In this document: positions 4,426 through 18,003 of the stretch, one piece after another | How positions within the stretch are numbered: the stretch's first letter is position 1 | How the letters are laid out: every line of letters starts with the position of its first letter | Origin: Thermoplasmata archaeon | Lineage (GTDB): Archaea > Thermoplasmatota > Thermoplasmata > WALJ01 | DNA length: 36,816 nt | NCBI GenBank assembly: GCA_027006785.1 | Contig: JALTFR010000003.1 | Coordinates: forward strand, 1 to 36,816 | Direction of reading: 5' to 3' | Program-made: the position numbers and the translations under genes | The notes under the pieces: generated by a model | Told to the model about the DNA's origin: nothing | The model's database searches: none | Seen by the model: only the letters and a program-made list of their open reading frames with translations

Positions 4426-5112
4426 ATGCTTGAACACATACCTACCGGTTTTCCTCCTCTGGATGGAATTCTCGGAGGCGGACTTGATTCGGAAACAATA
4501 ACCGAGGTCTACGGAGAGGCAGGAAGCGGGAAGACGAACATGGCCATGATGCTTACCCGCTCTGTTGTTCAGGGTGGAAAAAAAGCAGTGTATATAGATA
4601 CGGAAGGTATAAGCGTAGAGCGCCTCAGGCAGATATGCGGGAAGGACTTTGAGTGGATGATAGAGGAGATGATGATAAGACATGTATATACCCTGGCTGA
4701 GCAGGAAAGGGCAGTTGAAAGGGCGGTCAGCGCTGCAGAGACAGGCAAGGTCGGAATCATTGTGGTCGATTCCATGACCGGGCTTTACCGCCTTGACATA
4801 GGCACCGACATGGAGAGCGGAAGCATGCGCTCCCTGACAAAACAGATGATCAACCTTCTCAATGCAGCCAGAAAAAACGAGATTGCCGTTCTTATAACGA
4901 ATCAGGTCTATACCGACAGGCAGAGGGGAGAGTACAGGCCTATGGGGGGCCATGTGGTTGACCACTATGCTAAGACCATAATCCGACTTGATAAGCTCAG
5001 GGATGGTAAAAGGCGGGCTGTGATCCTCAAGCACAGGTCTGTACCCGAAGGAAGGTATGCGGAGTTCAGGATAGTTGAGGACGGATTCGGGCCTGTGGAT
5101 GGGAAATCTTAA
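4426..5112 (+). CDS. radB: DNA repair and recombination protein RadB
   Basis: Euryarchaeal RadA/RecA paralogue, an accessory of homologous recombination made of the core ATPase domain only. It opens with IPTGFPPLDGILGGGL, the typical RadB/KaiC start, followed by Walker A GEAGSGKT (about residues 29-36) and Walker B VGIIVVDSMTGLYRLD near residue 108. The L2-like region has ITNQVYTD. At 228 residues it has the usual RadB length and lacks the N-terminal helix-hairpin-helix domain of RadA. The ATG is taken because a TATA box sits 26 nt upstream. Its stop overlaps the TATA box of the next gene. Confidence 0.9.
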   Translation: MLEHIPTGFPPLDGILGGGLDSETITEVYGEAGSGKTNMAMMLTRSVVQGGKKAVYIDTEGISVERLRQICGKDFEWMIEEMMIRHVYTLAEQERAVERAVSAAETGKVGIIVVDSMTGLYRLDIGTDMESGSMRSLTKQMINLLNAARKNEIAVLITNQVYTDRQRGEYRPMGGHVVDHYAKTIIRLDKLRDGKRRAVILKHRSVPEGRYAEFRIVEDGFGPVDGKS

Positions 5113-13445: not shown

Positions 13446-14915
13446 TCATTTCAACCTTCTTTTCCTCATGGAGAGCGCTCCAAGAACAGCGGTGAAGAGC
13501 ACCGGAATGAGAATGCCGCGGAACTCGGGCACAGGCGTCGTTGCCCTGAAGACTTCCGTCTTAGATGTGTTCATATCCGTATCCCTGGGATTATCAATGA
13601 ATGTCAATCCCGTGTAGTTCACGGTTATGTTGTAGGGTGTGTAAGATATCTTTGTGGTCTTGTTCGCCCAGTATTCAGTCAGGACTATCCATTTGATATA
13701 TCCATTTCCATCGGTTGTGAAATTCTTATCGTAGGTTCCGTTTGCATTGTCTTTAACCCTGACCTCTGCCGCAGGAATCGCCTGATGATTTGAATCCTCA
13801 ACATACACATGAAGATACCATCTGACTGTCAGATTGCTGTATTGGTCTATCGTGATTTTGCTCTCATTAAAAAATGAGTTTGTGGCAACCATATATGTGC
13901 CAGGGTTTCCTACAATAGACATGTCATAAAGGCTTGTGTTGGTTATCGTTGTGTTGTAAATATAGATGTATCGTGTTGATGATGTGGATATACCGTATCT
14001 TGCATGGTCTATCGTGACATTTATCAGCGTTGGTGTGGAGTGATATGAATAAACCCCATCCTCTGTGCTCCTCAAAATCTTCGTATTCTTTATAATTGGC
14101 TTGCAGTTATAGGTTATCTGGATTCCTACTGCCGTATCCTTTCCCCTTCCGGTGTCAGTTATAACATTCCCTATGACTAACGGATTGCTCGGCCAAGGTC
14201 CGTTTGTGTTGTCCCAGCCGTCTATCCATATCCCATAATCATGGCTCCATGTTATCCAGTTGTTCTCTATGGTTGCGTTGGACCATGTTGTGGCCATTAT
14301 TCCCGTGTCATCGTTCCATGTTATCGTGTTGTTGGATACGGTGGCATCGGAACCGTAGAGAACCACGCCCATGTAATTGTTGGAAATCAGGTTGTGGTCT
14401 ATGGTGGCGTTGTCCGTATAAATCATTATACCTGCACCGCCAAGGCTCACAGATGCACCGCCACAATGATGCAATTCACTGTTTTTCATGGTGAAATTGC
14501 TCCCATCCCTTACCCAGAACCAATAATATGCTGCGGTGTTGTTTATGGTGATGTTAGAAGCGTCATAACTGGTTGTGTTATCGTTATCCCAATCAAGTAT
14601 GTTCATCGTTGCCCCTCTTTTTACTTCGATATGATAGAAATCATCCATTGTCGTACCGCCTACGGGGCTGTCCACAATCAGGGTTACATTCTTGAAAGTT
14701 AGAGTGGCACCGTATTCCACGGTTAGATTGCCTTTGAGGATTATGGTTTCATTCCACACCACGGTGTCTGTGGTGATTGTCCAATCACCACTTGCAGGTG
14801 GCGGATAATCCCCTGAACCTCCACCTCTCACATTATCGGGAACCATCCCTATAACTACGAAAACCAGAAGCATAAGCAGTATTGCACCCGTCAATTTCAT
14901 GTTCCTCGCTTTCAT
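13446..14915 (-). CDS. Surface right-handed beta-helix protein (NosD-like) with PEF-CTERM-like anchor
   Basis: A 489-residue exported protein. The N terminus has a signal peptide (MKLTGAILLMLLVFVVIGMV). Residues 60-370 are parallel beta-helix repeats of the NosD/PbH1 type, recognisable as N-x-I-x-x-N units such as NNTITWNDDTGIMATTWSNA, very rich in Asn and Thr with many N-glycosylation sequons. A carboxypeptidase-regulatory-like beta sandwich follows (VEDSNHQAIPAAEVRVKD near residue 378). The C terminus, PVPEFRGILIPVLF, then a hydrophobic stretch and RKRRLK, matches PEF-CTERM sorting signals that archaeosortases process in Methanosarcina and relatives. It is probably a surface or S-layer-associated protein. 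Its codon use is more A/T-rich than its neighbours. Transcribed alone, convergent to sucD. Confidence 0.82.
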   Translation of the reverse strand: MKARNMKLTGAILLMLLVFVVIGMVPDNVRGGGSGDYPPPASGDWTITTDTVVWNETIILKGNLTVEYGATLTFKNVTLIVDSPVGGTTMDDFYHIEVKRGATMNILDWDNDNTTSYDASNITINNTAAYYWFWVRDGSNFTMKNSELHHCGGASVSLGGAGIMIYTDNATIDHNLISNNYMGVVLYGSDATVSNNTITWNDDTGIMATTWSNATIENNWITWSHDYGIWIDGWDNTNGPWPSNPLVIGNVITDTGRGKDTAVGIQITYNCKPIIKNTKILRSTEDGVYSYHSTPTLINVTIDHARYGISTSSTRYIYIYNTTITNTSLYDMSIVGNPGTYMVATNSFFNESKITIDQYSNLTVRWYLHVYVEDSNHQAIPAAEVRVKDNANGTYDKNFTTDGNGYIKWIVLTEYWANKTTKISYTPYNITVNYTGLTFIDNPRDTDMNTSKTEVFRATTPVPEFRGILIPVLFTAVLGALSMRKRRLK

Positions 14916-14975: not shown

Positions 14976-15269
14976 CTACGGGCCCGCGGCCCTCTCTATC
15001 TTACTTTGAATGCTTGCGTCCTTGTCCGTCCTGTGGTCTATCTTCACCAGTATGCTAATTCTTTTGGAACCCATCTCCAGCAGCCTTTCGTCAGCCTTCT
15101 TAACGATTTCAAAGATGCTATCCAGGTCCTCTGCCTCGACCTCCGTGGACATGGAGCATACCCTGTAGTTCAACCCGCTCTCATCTATTGTTCGGATAAC
15201 CTCCTTCACATAGTCCCCAACGCTTATCCCCTTGTCCAGCGGGCTTATCACCAGGGATGCTATGATCAT
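14976..15269 (-). CDS. MTH1187-family (DUF77, YqgV) thiamine-binding-like protein
   Basis: A 97-residue ferredoxin-like-fold protein. IIASLVISPLDKGISVGDYV at the start, then YRVCSMSTEVEAEDLDSIFE near residue 36 and RISILVKIDHRTDKDASI near residue 70 match the MTH1187 family. Some members bind hydroxymethylpyrimidine or thiamine; others have no known role. It is the last gene of the four-gene KaiC-like operon. It starts at an ATG preceded by GGAGG (15277-15281), which reaches back to the stop of the upstream gene. The shared operon suggests work alongside the KaiC-like ATPases rather than in thiamine synthesis, since no thi gene is nearby; this is inference. Confidence 0.8.
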   Translation of the reverse strand: MIIASLVISPLDKGISVGDYVKEVIRTIDESGLNYRVCSMSTEVEAEDLDSIFEIVKKADERLLEMGSKRISILVKIDHRTDKDASIQSKIERAAGP

Positions 15270-15270
15270 G

Positions 15271-15624
15271 CTATCCCTCCGGCGTCATCTCGTACGAGAA
15301 CAGGCGGAGCACCCCGCTCTCTATGTTGCTGGTCCCCAGCGACTTGATTATGGCCGTTGTCTGCTCGTCCGGCTCCCTTATCCTTATCAGTTCGTCGCGC
15401 TCGTCGAGAAGCCATATCCCCGTGACCGTCCCTTTCTCGCATTCAGCCTCTATCACCCCGTATCTTACATAAGGATACCAGCTGTTGAAGACCCTGCAGT
15501 CAGGGAACCTCTCCTTCCACTCATTCTCCAGGGATGAAGGCCCTGCGCTCGTCCTGAAAAAGACATGGATGTCCCCAATGTCGTCGAGCGCGCTCAGCAC
15601 CTTCTCCCACTCTCCATCGTCCAA
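15271..15624 (-). CDS. Unrecognised 117-residue protein of the KaiC-like operon
   Basis: I do not recognise a family. The protein is soluble and acidic, with predicted alternating beta strands and helices: GDIHVFFRTSAGPSSL near residue 16, CRVFNSWYPYVRYGVIEAEC near residue 43, and TVTGIWLLDERDELIRIREP near residue 66. The start is a TTG preceded by GAGGTG, two nt after the stop of the KaiC-like ATPase gene and spaced as expected for translational coupling; no ATG is available at that position. Its fixed place between an ATPase and an MTH1187-like protein suggests a partner or sensory subunit. It could be a small ligand-binding domain, but nothing in the sequence shows which ligand. Confidence 0.7.
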   Translation of the reverse strand: MDDGEWEKVLSALDDIGDIHVFFRTSAGPSSLENEWKERFPDCRVFNSWYPYVRYGVIEAECEKGTVTGIWLLDERDELIRIREPDEQTTAIIKSLGTSNIESGVLRLFSYEMTPEG

Positions 15625-15625
15625 A

Positions 15626-16318
15626 TCAGAACACCTCGCTCTGGGTCTTCACCACTATTCCTGAATCGGTTATCTCGTATGGCTTCCTTGTCCTCGAATG
15701 CGAGGTCCTCCTCATCTTGACCACCCTGACGGACAACTGCACCTCTCCGCCAGATATCTCGTATGTGAGCCTTATGACTCCATCAGCGGTGTATTCCACG
15801 ATGCCGTCCCTTGAATAATCCGGATTCGTGGTGTCCGCCTCTGCGGTGAATATCCCTGTTGCCCCTGCGCTCTTCACCATCCTCGCCATCTCGAAGAGCT
15901 TCATCCTCGCTTCCTGCCTGCTGTCGAAGGTCATCTCCAGAAGTGAGGCGGAATCCAGCACGAACCTCTGGACACCGAACTGCTCTATGACCTTCTTCAT
16001 CTCGTCTATCCTGCGGAGCGCCTCCCCTGCCTGTCCCGGGTCGCTCTTGATGATGGACAGCATGTTGTTCTCCATGTATGACTGGAGGTCCCAGCCGAAG
16101 GACCTCGCGGTCTCAAGTATTGATTCGACATCCTCTTCAAGGCTGAAGAACATCCCCTTCTCACCGTTCTTCAGGCCTTCATACAGGAACTGCATGCCGA
16201 AGGTGGTCTTTCCCGTTCCGAAGGAACCGACCACTGCCACCACATGCCCTTTCGGTATTCCACCGTTCAGGAGCTCGTCCAGCCCCTCTATTCCTGTGCT
16301 GAGTTTTTCCATGCTCAT
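15626..16318 (-). CDS. KaiC/RAD55-like RecA-superfamily ATPase
   Basis: A 230-residue single-domain KaiC-like ATPase. LSTGIEGLDELLNGGIPKGH opens the fold, followed by Walker A GSFGTGKTT (about residues 31-39), the KaiC-type FFSLEEDVESILETARSFGW near residue 57 and Walker B VQRFVLDSASLLEM near residue 115, so catalysis should be intact. Archaeal single-domain KaiC homologues act in signal transduction and motility control rather than circadian timing. Its ATG overlaps the stop of the upstream degenerate paralogue by 4 bp (ATGA) and is preceded by GGAGATGATC, so the two are co-translated and may form a mixed oligomer. The C-terminal tail is basic (SHSRTRKP). Confidence 0.88.
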   Translation of the reverse strand: MSMEKLSTGIEGLDELLNGGIPKGHVVAVVGSFGTGKTTFGMQFLYEGLKNGEKGMFFSLEEDVESILETARSFGWDLQSYMENNMLSIIKSDPGQAGEALRRIDEMKKVIEQFGVQRFVLDSASLLEMTFDSRQEARMKLFEMARMVKSAGATGIFTAEADTTNPDYSRDGIVEYTADGVIRLTYEISGGEVQLSVRVVKMRRTSHSRTRKPYEITDSGIVVKTQSEVF

Positions 16319-17145
16319 GAGATCATCTCCATGTTTATAACTGTATAGCCTGTTTCATGGTCAACGGTGGTCACGAACCTTCTTATTCCATGGGAGCGGA
16401 GATGCGGGAACAGGCTTGTGAACTTCTCCACATAGAGGTAGCGCCTGCGCGTTGATGACCTCTCGTGCTTTGACCATGTGAATGTCAGAACTCCGTCCAC
16501 GGAATCCACTATCATGTGCTCCACCCTCGAATCCACTATATCCCGGGAGAGCAGGAGATATACTATGCCTCCCTTCCTCTTTGAGACCCTCTGCAGGCCC
16601 TTCAGCACCATCACGATGTCCGCATCCTTTATCTTCTCGTTTATCAGAAGGTCGGTGAGAGAGTCCACAATTATCATGGAGTTGTCCGGAACGCTGTCCA
16701 TGTAGTCCACGAAGGCCTTCAGAAGGTCCTTGTTCCCTGAGCCGAAGAGCGCCTGGCCCGGGTCCATTCCGGACCAAGACGAAGGCACGATGGTCCCGCT
16801 GAAATATTCCGTGGAAAAATCCATGAACTCCACATTGTCCCTTATTGCCTCGAAAAAGTCCTTTGAGAACGCCATCTCTATCTCGGTAAGTATGTCCTGC
16901 TTCGACCTTGAGAAGCTTATGTAGATGACCTTGTCCGGAAGGGTTGATATCTTATAGGTGTATCCGAGAAGGCTCTCCCTTCTCTCAGGGTTCAACTTTG
17001 CAAGTATTATCTTTGCCGCGGAGGTGTAGACGAACTCCGTGTTCCCCGCACCCAGTTCCCCGAGCAGAAGGACCGTCGAGCCTGCCGGCAGGCCCCCTTC
17101 AACAATTCCATCCAGGTCAGACACAGCTGTCGGTATCCGTTTCAC
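16315..17145 (-). CDS. Degenerate KaiC-like protein lacking the Walker A lysine
   Basis: A 276-residue RecA/KaiC-fold protein that starts like its neighbour (VSDLDGIVEGGLPAGSTVLL), but the phosphate-binding loop reads GELGAGNTE: the invariant lysine of GxxGxGK[ST] is Asn (codon AAC at about 17041-17060). The Walker B-like strand is kept (NSMIIVDSLTDLLINEKI near residue 155). Loss of the lysine normally abolishes ATP hydrolysis, so it may be a regulatory pseudo-ATPase partner of the intact KaiC-like protein encoded next. First gene of a four-gene operon. The start is GTG at 17145 with a TATA box 24 nt upstream and no Shine-Dalgarno; the nearby ATG at 17149 is out of frame. Confidence 0.82.
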   Translation of the reverse strand: MKRIPTAVSDLDGIVEGGLPAGSTVLLLGELGAGNTEFVYTSAAKIILAKLNPERRESLLGYTYKISTLPDKVIYISFSRSKQDILTEIEMAFSKDFFEAIRDNVEFMDFSTEYFSGTIVPSSWSGMDPGQALFGSGNKDLLKAFVDYMDSVPDNSMIIVDSLTDLLINEKIKDADIVMVLKGLQRVSKRKGGIVYLLLSRDIVDSRVEHMIVDSVDGVLTFTWSKHERSSTRRRYLYVEKFTSLFPHLRSHGIRRFVTTVDHETGYTVINMEMIS

Positions 17146-17163
17146 GCATGGATATCCGCCGGA

Positions 17164-17174
17164 GGCTTAAAAAG
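17164..17174 (-). promoter_or_regulatory. TATA box of the KaiC-like operon
   Basis: Minus-strand CTTTTTAAGCC is centred 24 nt before the GTG start, which predicts a leaderless transcript. It shares a 95-bp divergent region with the promoter of the membrane protein and regulator pair. Confidence 0.5.
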
Positions 17175-17197
17175 ATGATGGAGAGTTCCGGGAAAAT

Positions 17198-17207
17198 CTT
17201 ATTTAAG
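17198..17207 (+). promoter_or_regulatory. TATA box of the small membrane protein and winged-helix pair
   Basis: CTTATTTAAG predicts transcription from about 17227, leaving a short leader with GGTGA before ATG 17241. Confidence 0.45.
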
Positions 17208-17240
17208 CGTGTTAATTGGGGAAGGTGGTGAATTGACTTG

Positions 17241-17492
17241 ATGCTCGAGATATTCCTGATGGTACTCCTTGCAGGGCTGTCCGCGGTGCTCGCCCTCATA
17301 GGCTTCGTTTCATGGAAGAGGAGTGGTAGCCTGAAGATAGGGCTGGTGGCAATAGCCCTGCTGATATTTGCGGTAAAAGGCTCATACATGGCATATAATG
17401 CCGTGAGCAGCGGAGTTCTCATGGAGAGCACGGGCCTTCTTTTGATGGATGTTCTTGTGGTCGGACTGCTGTACCTTTCCGTACTAAAATGA
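17241..17492 (+). CDS. Small three-helix membrane protein
   Basis: An 83-residue, highly hydrophobic protein with three predicted transmembrane segments: residues 2-23, 33-53 and 61-82, the latter including LLLMDVLVVGLLYLSVLK. A single basic loop (SWKRSGSLK) suggests the orientation. I recognise no enzymatic motif. It is 4 nt upstream of a winged-helix regulator gene; pairs of a small membrane protein and such a regulator are frequent in archaea and may form a membrane-sensing unit, which is inference. The preceding GGTGGTGA (17224-17231) favours ATG 17241 over the adjacent TTG at 17238. Confidence 0.72.
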   Translation: MLEIFLMVLLAGLSAVLALIGFVSWKRSGSLKIGLVAIALLIFAVKGSYMAYNAVSSGVLMESTGLLLMDVLVVGLLYLSVLK

Positions 17493-17496
17493 TAGC

Positions 17497-18003
17497 ATGA
17501 AAAAGGATGCCCTTGCCCTGGAGAAGAGAAGAACGATATATCAGTATGTTAAAGAACACCCCGGGGTCTATATGCGGGAGATACAGAAGGAACTGAGCAT
17601 GGCCACAGGCGTCCTGGAATACCATCTGGACTACCTTGTCAAAGAAGGATTACTGACAACGCACATGGACGGGAGGAAGAAGAGGTTCTATTCCTCGGAG
17701 GTGAGTGCTCCCCACAAGGAACTCCTCTCATTCCTGAGGCAGAGGCAGAGCCGGAGGATACTCGTCACGGCACTTAAACCCAAAGGTGCATCCTTAGATG
17801 AGCTGAAAGAGGGGTGCTCCTGTTCCAGAGGTACACTGCTGGTGTATATCAGCAGGCTTTTGAAGACAGGATACCTTGAAAAAAGGGGTGAAAGATATTT
17901 CGCGGTGAATCCTGATGAACTGACGAAGATGCTCATAAGCTACCGTGAGAGCTATCTGGACGATGTGGTGGACCGCTTCCTCGATTCATTCGGAAACCTG
18001 TGA
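17497..18003 (+). CDS. Two-domain winged helix-turn-helix transcriptional regulator
   Basis: A 168-residue DNA-binding protein with two winged helices. The N-terminal one is ArsR/MarR-like: KRRTIYQYVKEHPGVYMREI near residue 10, then MATGVLEYHLDYLVKEGLLT and a basic wing (DGRKKRFY). The second spans about residues 85-150 (LKPKGASLDELKEGCSCSRG, then SRLLKTGYLEKRGERYFAVN). The second domain has a Cys pair (CSC) that might sense redox or metal, though that is speculative. No ligand domain is present. Co-transcribed with the small membrane protein and divergent from the KaiC-like operon, which it may regulate together with its own promoter. Confidence 0.83.
   Translation: MKKDALALEKRRTIYQYVKEHPGVYMREIQKELSMATGVLEYHLDYLVKEGLLTTHMDGRKKRFYSSEVSAPHKELLSFLRQRQSRRILVTALKPKGASLDELKEGCSCSRGTLLVYISRLLKTGYLEKRGERYFAVNPDELTKMLISYRESYLDDVVDRFLDSFGNL

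Follow-up and report, generated by a model that had tools for sequence, protein, structure and literature searches.

A conserved gene pair of an intact KaiC-like ATPase and a predicted pseudo-KaiC in the Thermoplasmata

A four-gene locus in a Thermoplasmata genome

The window analyzed here, a stretch of 36,816 nucleotides from a Thermoplasmata archaeon, carries four head-to-tail open reading frames on the minus strand, running from 17145 to 14976. The leading gene, kps (17145-16315; 276 aa, GTG start), encodes a predicted pseudo-KaiC and is followed by kai (16318-15626; 230 aa, ATG start) for an intact KaiC-like ATPase, unk (15624-15271; 117 aa, TTG start) for an alpha/beta protein, and thi (15269-14976; 97 aa, ATG start) for an MTH1187/DUF77-type protein. 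Each of these frames has homologues and the GTG start of kps coincides with the Met of its relatives, which argues that the four did not arise by chance. The kps and kai genes overlap in an ATGA; a Shine-Dalgarno-like GAGGTG 5' of unk sits inside the 3' end of kai, and a GGAGG of the same kind 5' of thi sits inside the 3' end of unk. A sequence-only reading of the same DNA had described this layout, with its ATGA coupling and its Shine-Dalgarno elements reaching back into the preceding gene, and both the reading frames and the sequence bear it out. Of the interval that it had assigned to the unit, 14976-17240, the start holds, while the end lies beyond kps, where positions 17146-17237 form the divergent intergenic region between kps and the gene of an 84-aa membrane protein. 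A candidate TATA-like element, CTTAAATA, was read by eye near 17199-17208 on the minus strand.

The genes on either side were also considered. A gene for a secreted NosD/beta-helix protein (13446-14915, minus strand) begins 60 bases past thi, and in a related genome (G003), as in the window, a NosD-like secreted protein gene of the same orientation lies 3' of the four genes. Upstream, a divergent pair on the plus strand (17238-18003) encodes the 84-aa membrane protein, with a weak match to DUF7471, and a wHTH regulator (17497-18003) with an HVO_0163-type N-terminal domain. A link between kps and this regulator was rejected, as there were no wHTH matches in 80 kps loci, and the divergent pair was not found beside kps elsewhere. 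The window also holds a RadA/RadB-like gene of the RecA superfamily with a Rad51 domain (4426-5112, plus strand), which is unrelated to kps and kai.

An intact KaiC and a partner with a degenerate ATPase site

The Kai protein has a complete set of ATPase motifs. Its Walker A reads GSFGTGKTT with the Lys in place, it matches Pfam PF06745 over residues 7-227 with 214.6 bits (cut-off 26.6), and it passes the TIGR03880 model KaiC_arch_3 with 251.4 bits against a cut-off of 249.45. These features are held across its relatives, with the Lys, the Glu-Glu pair and the Walker B Asp kept in all 99 homologues compared, and the Lys and Arg of the KMR motif in all 98 that have residues at the trans site.

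Kps, by contrast, lacks an intact ATPase motif set, of which the Walker B Asp alone remains. Its Walker A reads GELGAGNTE, and the Lys position is filled in 103 distinct homologues, taken from the fetched loci, by Gln (49), Gly (22), Asn (10), Met (10), His (4), Thr (3), Phe (2), Ala (2) and Tyr (1), and in none of them by Lys. The Mg-coordinating Thr is mostly replaced (Thr in 4 of 103), and two positions past the lost Lys stands an acidic residue (Glu in 99, Asp in 4). The Glu-Glu pair is missing from all 103, its substitutes being mainly Ser or Ala followed by Arg or Lys, most often Ser-Arg. At the trans Arg finger, KMR has become KFM, KFT or KFI, so that the Lys is kept and the Arg is absent throughout (103/103), as constantly as the Walker B Asp is present (103/103). 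A further set of residues, D109, S111, P121, W124, F222 and W224, is invariant and specific to Kps. The equivalence of the motifs past Walker A was read motif by motif from the flanking pattern, because an hhalign alignment of Kps with Kai was misaligned there owing to insertions in Kps.

Profile matches of Kps are correspondingly faint: PF06745 is matched with 35.7 bits (cut-off 26.6), the best stretch covering residues 4-39 only, and no NCBIfam cut-off is passed. Its predicted structure (pLDDT 87.6) nevertheless has KaiC and archaeal KaiC-like proteins as its top fold matches in the PDB, with E values of about 1e-11. The motifs and the model together indicate a KaiC fold with a predicted loss of any usable ATPase site. 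Since the Walker A Lys is found in none of the 103 homologues, the inactivation is ancient, and a private mutation of the Lys is rejected. Decay of kps as a pseudogene was likewise rejected on the strength of its full-length open frames and strong conservation. The sequence-only reading had taken the first protein for a KaiC/RecA-fold protein with a Lys-less Walker A (GAGNT) and the second for an intact KaiC-like ATPase, and both assignments stand; its proposed search for the Lys-to-Asn change gave Asn in 10 homologues amid the wider loss of Lys.

The window genome carries a second KaiC cluster, with its genes on one strand (G000:C42:72905-74921). It comprises an intact KaiC (GSCGTGKTT) and two degenerate KaiC-like frames, one of 234 aa without a P-loop and the other a KaiC-like protein reading GSPGSGTE, with the Lys changed to Thr.

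Distribution of the pair and of its downstream genes

The family of the window is represented by five genomes, all of them with kps, whose relatives there are 65-67% identical. A strong kps match was found in 193 of 300 genomes of the class, spread over 28 families, and a TIGR03880 protein at E<=1e-45 in 190, with one copy each. Both genes are present in 189 genomes, kps alone in four (G071, G108, G134 and G153) and kai alone in one (G123). In all five exceptions the known gene lies at a contig end, or too near to one for its partner to be visible, and in G123 a 34-residue kps fragment stands beside kai; apart from contig ends, the co-occurrence of kps and kai in the 300 class genomes is perfect. 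Two families (f5 and f17) had neither gene among the matches listed, and in a wider sample of the phylum (243 genomes) kps occurred outside the class in a single genome, G330.

The two genes are also fixed in position. A script placed kai directly after kps at 99 of 103 loci; in three of the remaining four kai lies within a long overlapping open frame and the fourth is at a contig edge, which brings the adjacency to 102 of 102 assessable loci. A fusion of kps and kai at three loci (L036, L076 and L110) was rejected, the long shared frames being out of frame with kps. Adjacency at every assessable locus, together with co-occurrence that is perfect apart from contig ends, argues from genome comparison that the pair is a conserved unit, as the sequence-only reading had proposed for its pseudo-KaiC and intact KaiC. 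Distances among kps and among kai sequences are correlated (r 0.88), which mostly reflects shared species history and is in keeping with joint inheritance rather than proof of contact. Mean tree distances are similar (1.45 for kps and 1.25 for kai), and the dead copy is thus conserved nearly as well as the live one.

The surroundings of the pair vary: it stands after lonB-nadM-cinA and near purC in many genomes and elsewhere in others, with a cinA match in 30 of 80 loci and a purC match also in 30 of 80. The pair thus moves as a unit through changing surroundings. The order lonB-nadM-cinA-(kps-kai), often followed or closely accompanied by purC, was seen at six loci (L050, L051, L052, L054, L057 and L058) and in several families. 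These recurrent NAD-metabolism and LonB neighbors may hint at the function of the pair, and we regard them as a lead only.

The two downstream genes are not part of this conserved unit. Unk matches no Pfam family and passes no NCBIfam cut-off; its model is an alpha/beta protein (pLDDT 85.4) with no PDB match below E 1e-3 and a best TM of about 0.4. Remote relatives are scattered in the Thermoplasmata, in families f3, f4, f12 and f26 (L150-L157), where they adjoin CCA-adding-enzyme-like, thioredoxin-reductase-like and aminotransferase-like genes, names given by reading and not by family search. Thi passes PF01910 (92.6 bits) and the MTH1187 family TIGR00106 (76.5 bits, cut-off 54.7), and its closest solved structure is PDB 1lxn. 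It is the sole copy in the window genome, and of the 129 genomes that have thi nearly all have a single copy; outside the family of the window it sits about 90 kb or farther from the pair, or on a different contig. The order kai-unk-thi is confined to the window genome (G000), G001, G002 and G003; in the fifth genome of the family, G004, the contig ends inside kai. Among 80 independently fetched loci the arrangement appeared in three, from the same organisms as the G000-G003 set. Members of the family identified by name are Thermoplasmata MAGs (S014_43, Dive96 bins and 356-284).

The failure of the sequence-only reading to place the third protein, and its view of the fourth as DUF77/thiamine-binding-like, were both upheld, ligand binding by the latter being putative. 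The conservation of the four-gene order across the Thermoplasmatota, which it had proposed to test, was not, since unk and thi follow the pair only in the family of the window, and outside it a four-gene unit was rejected. Of its idea that the four genes form one system, the kps-kai part stood and the part that would make unk and thi class-wide partners did not. The locus is a class-wide core pair with a lineage-specific tail, in which unk and thi are a local addition.

Known KaiC systems and a model for the pair

Makarova, Galperin and Koonin reportedly proposed archaeal KaiC-like ATPases as signal-transduction hubs in mBio in 2017. PMC5847659 describes such signaling hubs and the iKaiC, an inactivated KaiC-like ATPase domain, with credit to Makarova et al. 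2017. Kps is a homologue of this kind, as judged from its degenerate site and the loss of activity predicted from it, and the association of a KaiC ATPase with a degenerate KaiC homologue is shared with the archaeal theme; the present genes differ in being separate, in being fixed as neighbors across most of the class and in carrying no fused input or output domain. The earlier statement that no described system has this composition was therefore too strong, given the archaeal KaiC ATPases and inactivated homologues described in PMC5847659. In the literature searched we found no paper on the kps-kai pair itself, and its novelty is provisional, the tables of Makarova et al. 2017 lying outside that search.

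Other known members of the superfamily resemble the pair in part. Kai belongs to TIGR03880, a model that covers the active protein alone and for which we found no mention of an obligate pseudo-KaiC partner. With cyanobacterial KaiC (circ_KaiC, TIGR02655) Kai shares the fold and the full ATPase motif set, and there too two KaiC domains are encoded in tandem; here, however, they are two separate genes of which the first is predicted to be catalytically dead, and both products miss the circ_KaiC cut-off of 546.25 (Kai 117.9 bits, Kps 13.5 bits). ArlH/FlaH (NF052589) is the best NCBIfam match of Kps, at 30.1 bits against 68.1 for Kai and a cut-off of 215. ArlH is a KaiC-like oligomeric regulator of a partner ATPase that binds ATP and does not hydrolyze it (PMC8978795), whereas kps lies outside any archaellum locus and ArlH has retained ATP binding. 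The Haloferax KaiC homologues CirA and CirD affect motility and cell shape (PMC13286277). Thi belongs to MTH1187/DUF77 (TIGR00106; PDB 1lxn), and its position behind a KaiC pair is peculiar to the family of the window.

A full-length kps homologue, 35% identical, is found in Natrinema thermotolerans (QCC61401.1), where the name 'HTR-like protein' is annotation only and the function putative. Like Kps it lacks the Walker A Lys (GAGAREF instead of GxGKT); unlike kps it has no KaiC gene adjacent, and the 987-kb replicon that carries it has no TIGR03880 protein above cut-off, so that an operonic kai may not be needed for kps to act. The two small genes 3' of it show no relationship to the wHTH gene at 17497-18003. 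Haloferax volcanii passes TIGR03880, and kps and kai may thus coexist unlinked in haloarchaea.

We propose, as the probable though far from certain reading, that Kps and Kai belong together as the two subunits of a single regulatory ATPase of the KaiC type. KaiC and ArlH are capable of autophosphorylation. Kai would bind and hydrolyze ATP, or autophosphorylate, and form the moving part of the switch; Kps, having lost its catalytic groups and kept the KaiC fold, would be a structural and regulatory subunit. It would assemble with Kai into one ring or a stack of rings, set the stoichiometry and cap the inter-subunit ATP sites, and its family-specific conserved residues D109/S111/Y114, P121/W124, F222/W224 and R233/R235 would offer surfaces to a partner. 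A strictly alternating ring would contain no complete ATP site, because Kps supplies neither P-loop nor Arg finger and the finger of Kai would face a dead site; the ring model therefore needs unequal stoichiometry or stacking. Workable forms would be rings of unequal composition that include Kai-Kai interfaces, or a ring of Kps stacked onto one of Kai by analogy with the CI and CII rings in KaiC. The pair might then work as a cytosolic switch that passes the ATP state of Kai on to a downstream target. Thi, as a possible ligand binder, and Unk would have come under the transcription unit of the pair in the lineage of the window, and may be accessory.

Other explanations would account for part of these observations. 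That the two genes are left over from an ancient tandem duplication and stay together through shared transcription, with their proteins acting separately, would suit the KaiC fold of both products and the unlinked haloarchaeal homologue, but co-occurrence and adjacency persist through many changes of surroundings and none of the 300 class genomes was shown to have one gene alone, which makes this rather unlikely. We hold it distinctly unlikely that all four products form one dedicated complex, a mixed active/inactive ATPase ring with two small regulatory or ligand-binding subunits. Tight coupling of the four genes, their shared order in the window genome and G001-G003, and a single thi copy in each of these genomes speak for it; yet thi is unlinked elsewhere and relatives of unk stand beside unrelated genes, and other families keep kps-kai without either, so that both seem dispensable for the pair.

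Unequal heteromers are a common working form of RecA paralogues, and Kps and Kai might on that ground be DNA repair mediators of the Rad55/Rad57 or archaeal aRadC kind, with no signaling switch. The RecA-superfamily fold and weak RadA/Rad51 matches of Kps agree with this; against it, KaiC is a better match than RadA for both proteins, the top fold matches are KaiC, and no DNA repair gene was seen recurring beside the pair in the kps-kai loci examined. We consider such a role very unlikely.

Our best reading is thus an obligate pair of active ATPase and pseudo-ATPase, which falls under the described archaeal theme of KaiC hubs accompanied by inactivated homologues, and the comparative sequence evidence suggests that the pair is probably one hetero-oligomeric ATP switch. 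A bolder version, which we offer tentatively and at somewhat less than an even chance, is a two-gene 'split' KaiC: an obligate hetero-oligomer in which a dead ring or subunit, Kps, has become evolutionarily tied to the live Kai, in most Thermoplasmata families and with a dead homologue in haloarchaea, that would constitute an undescribed core cellular switch. Archaeal KaiC-type ATPases are abundant and, to our knowledge, mostly without an assigned function. Genomes of Methanomassiliicoccus, which contain kps, and the single-contig genome G016 (1,486,778 bases), which contains the pair, would be tractable sources. An active and a dead KaiC fixed one-to-one in about 190 genomes would offer a clean system in which to learn what an inactivated KaiC is for.
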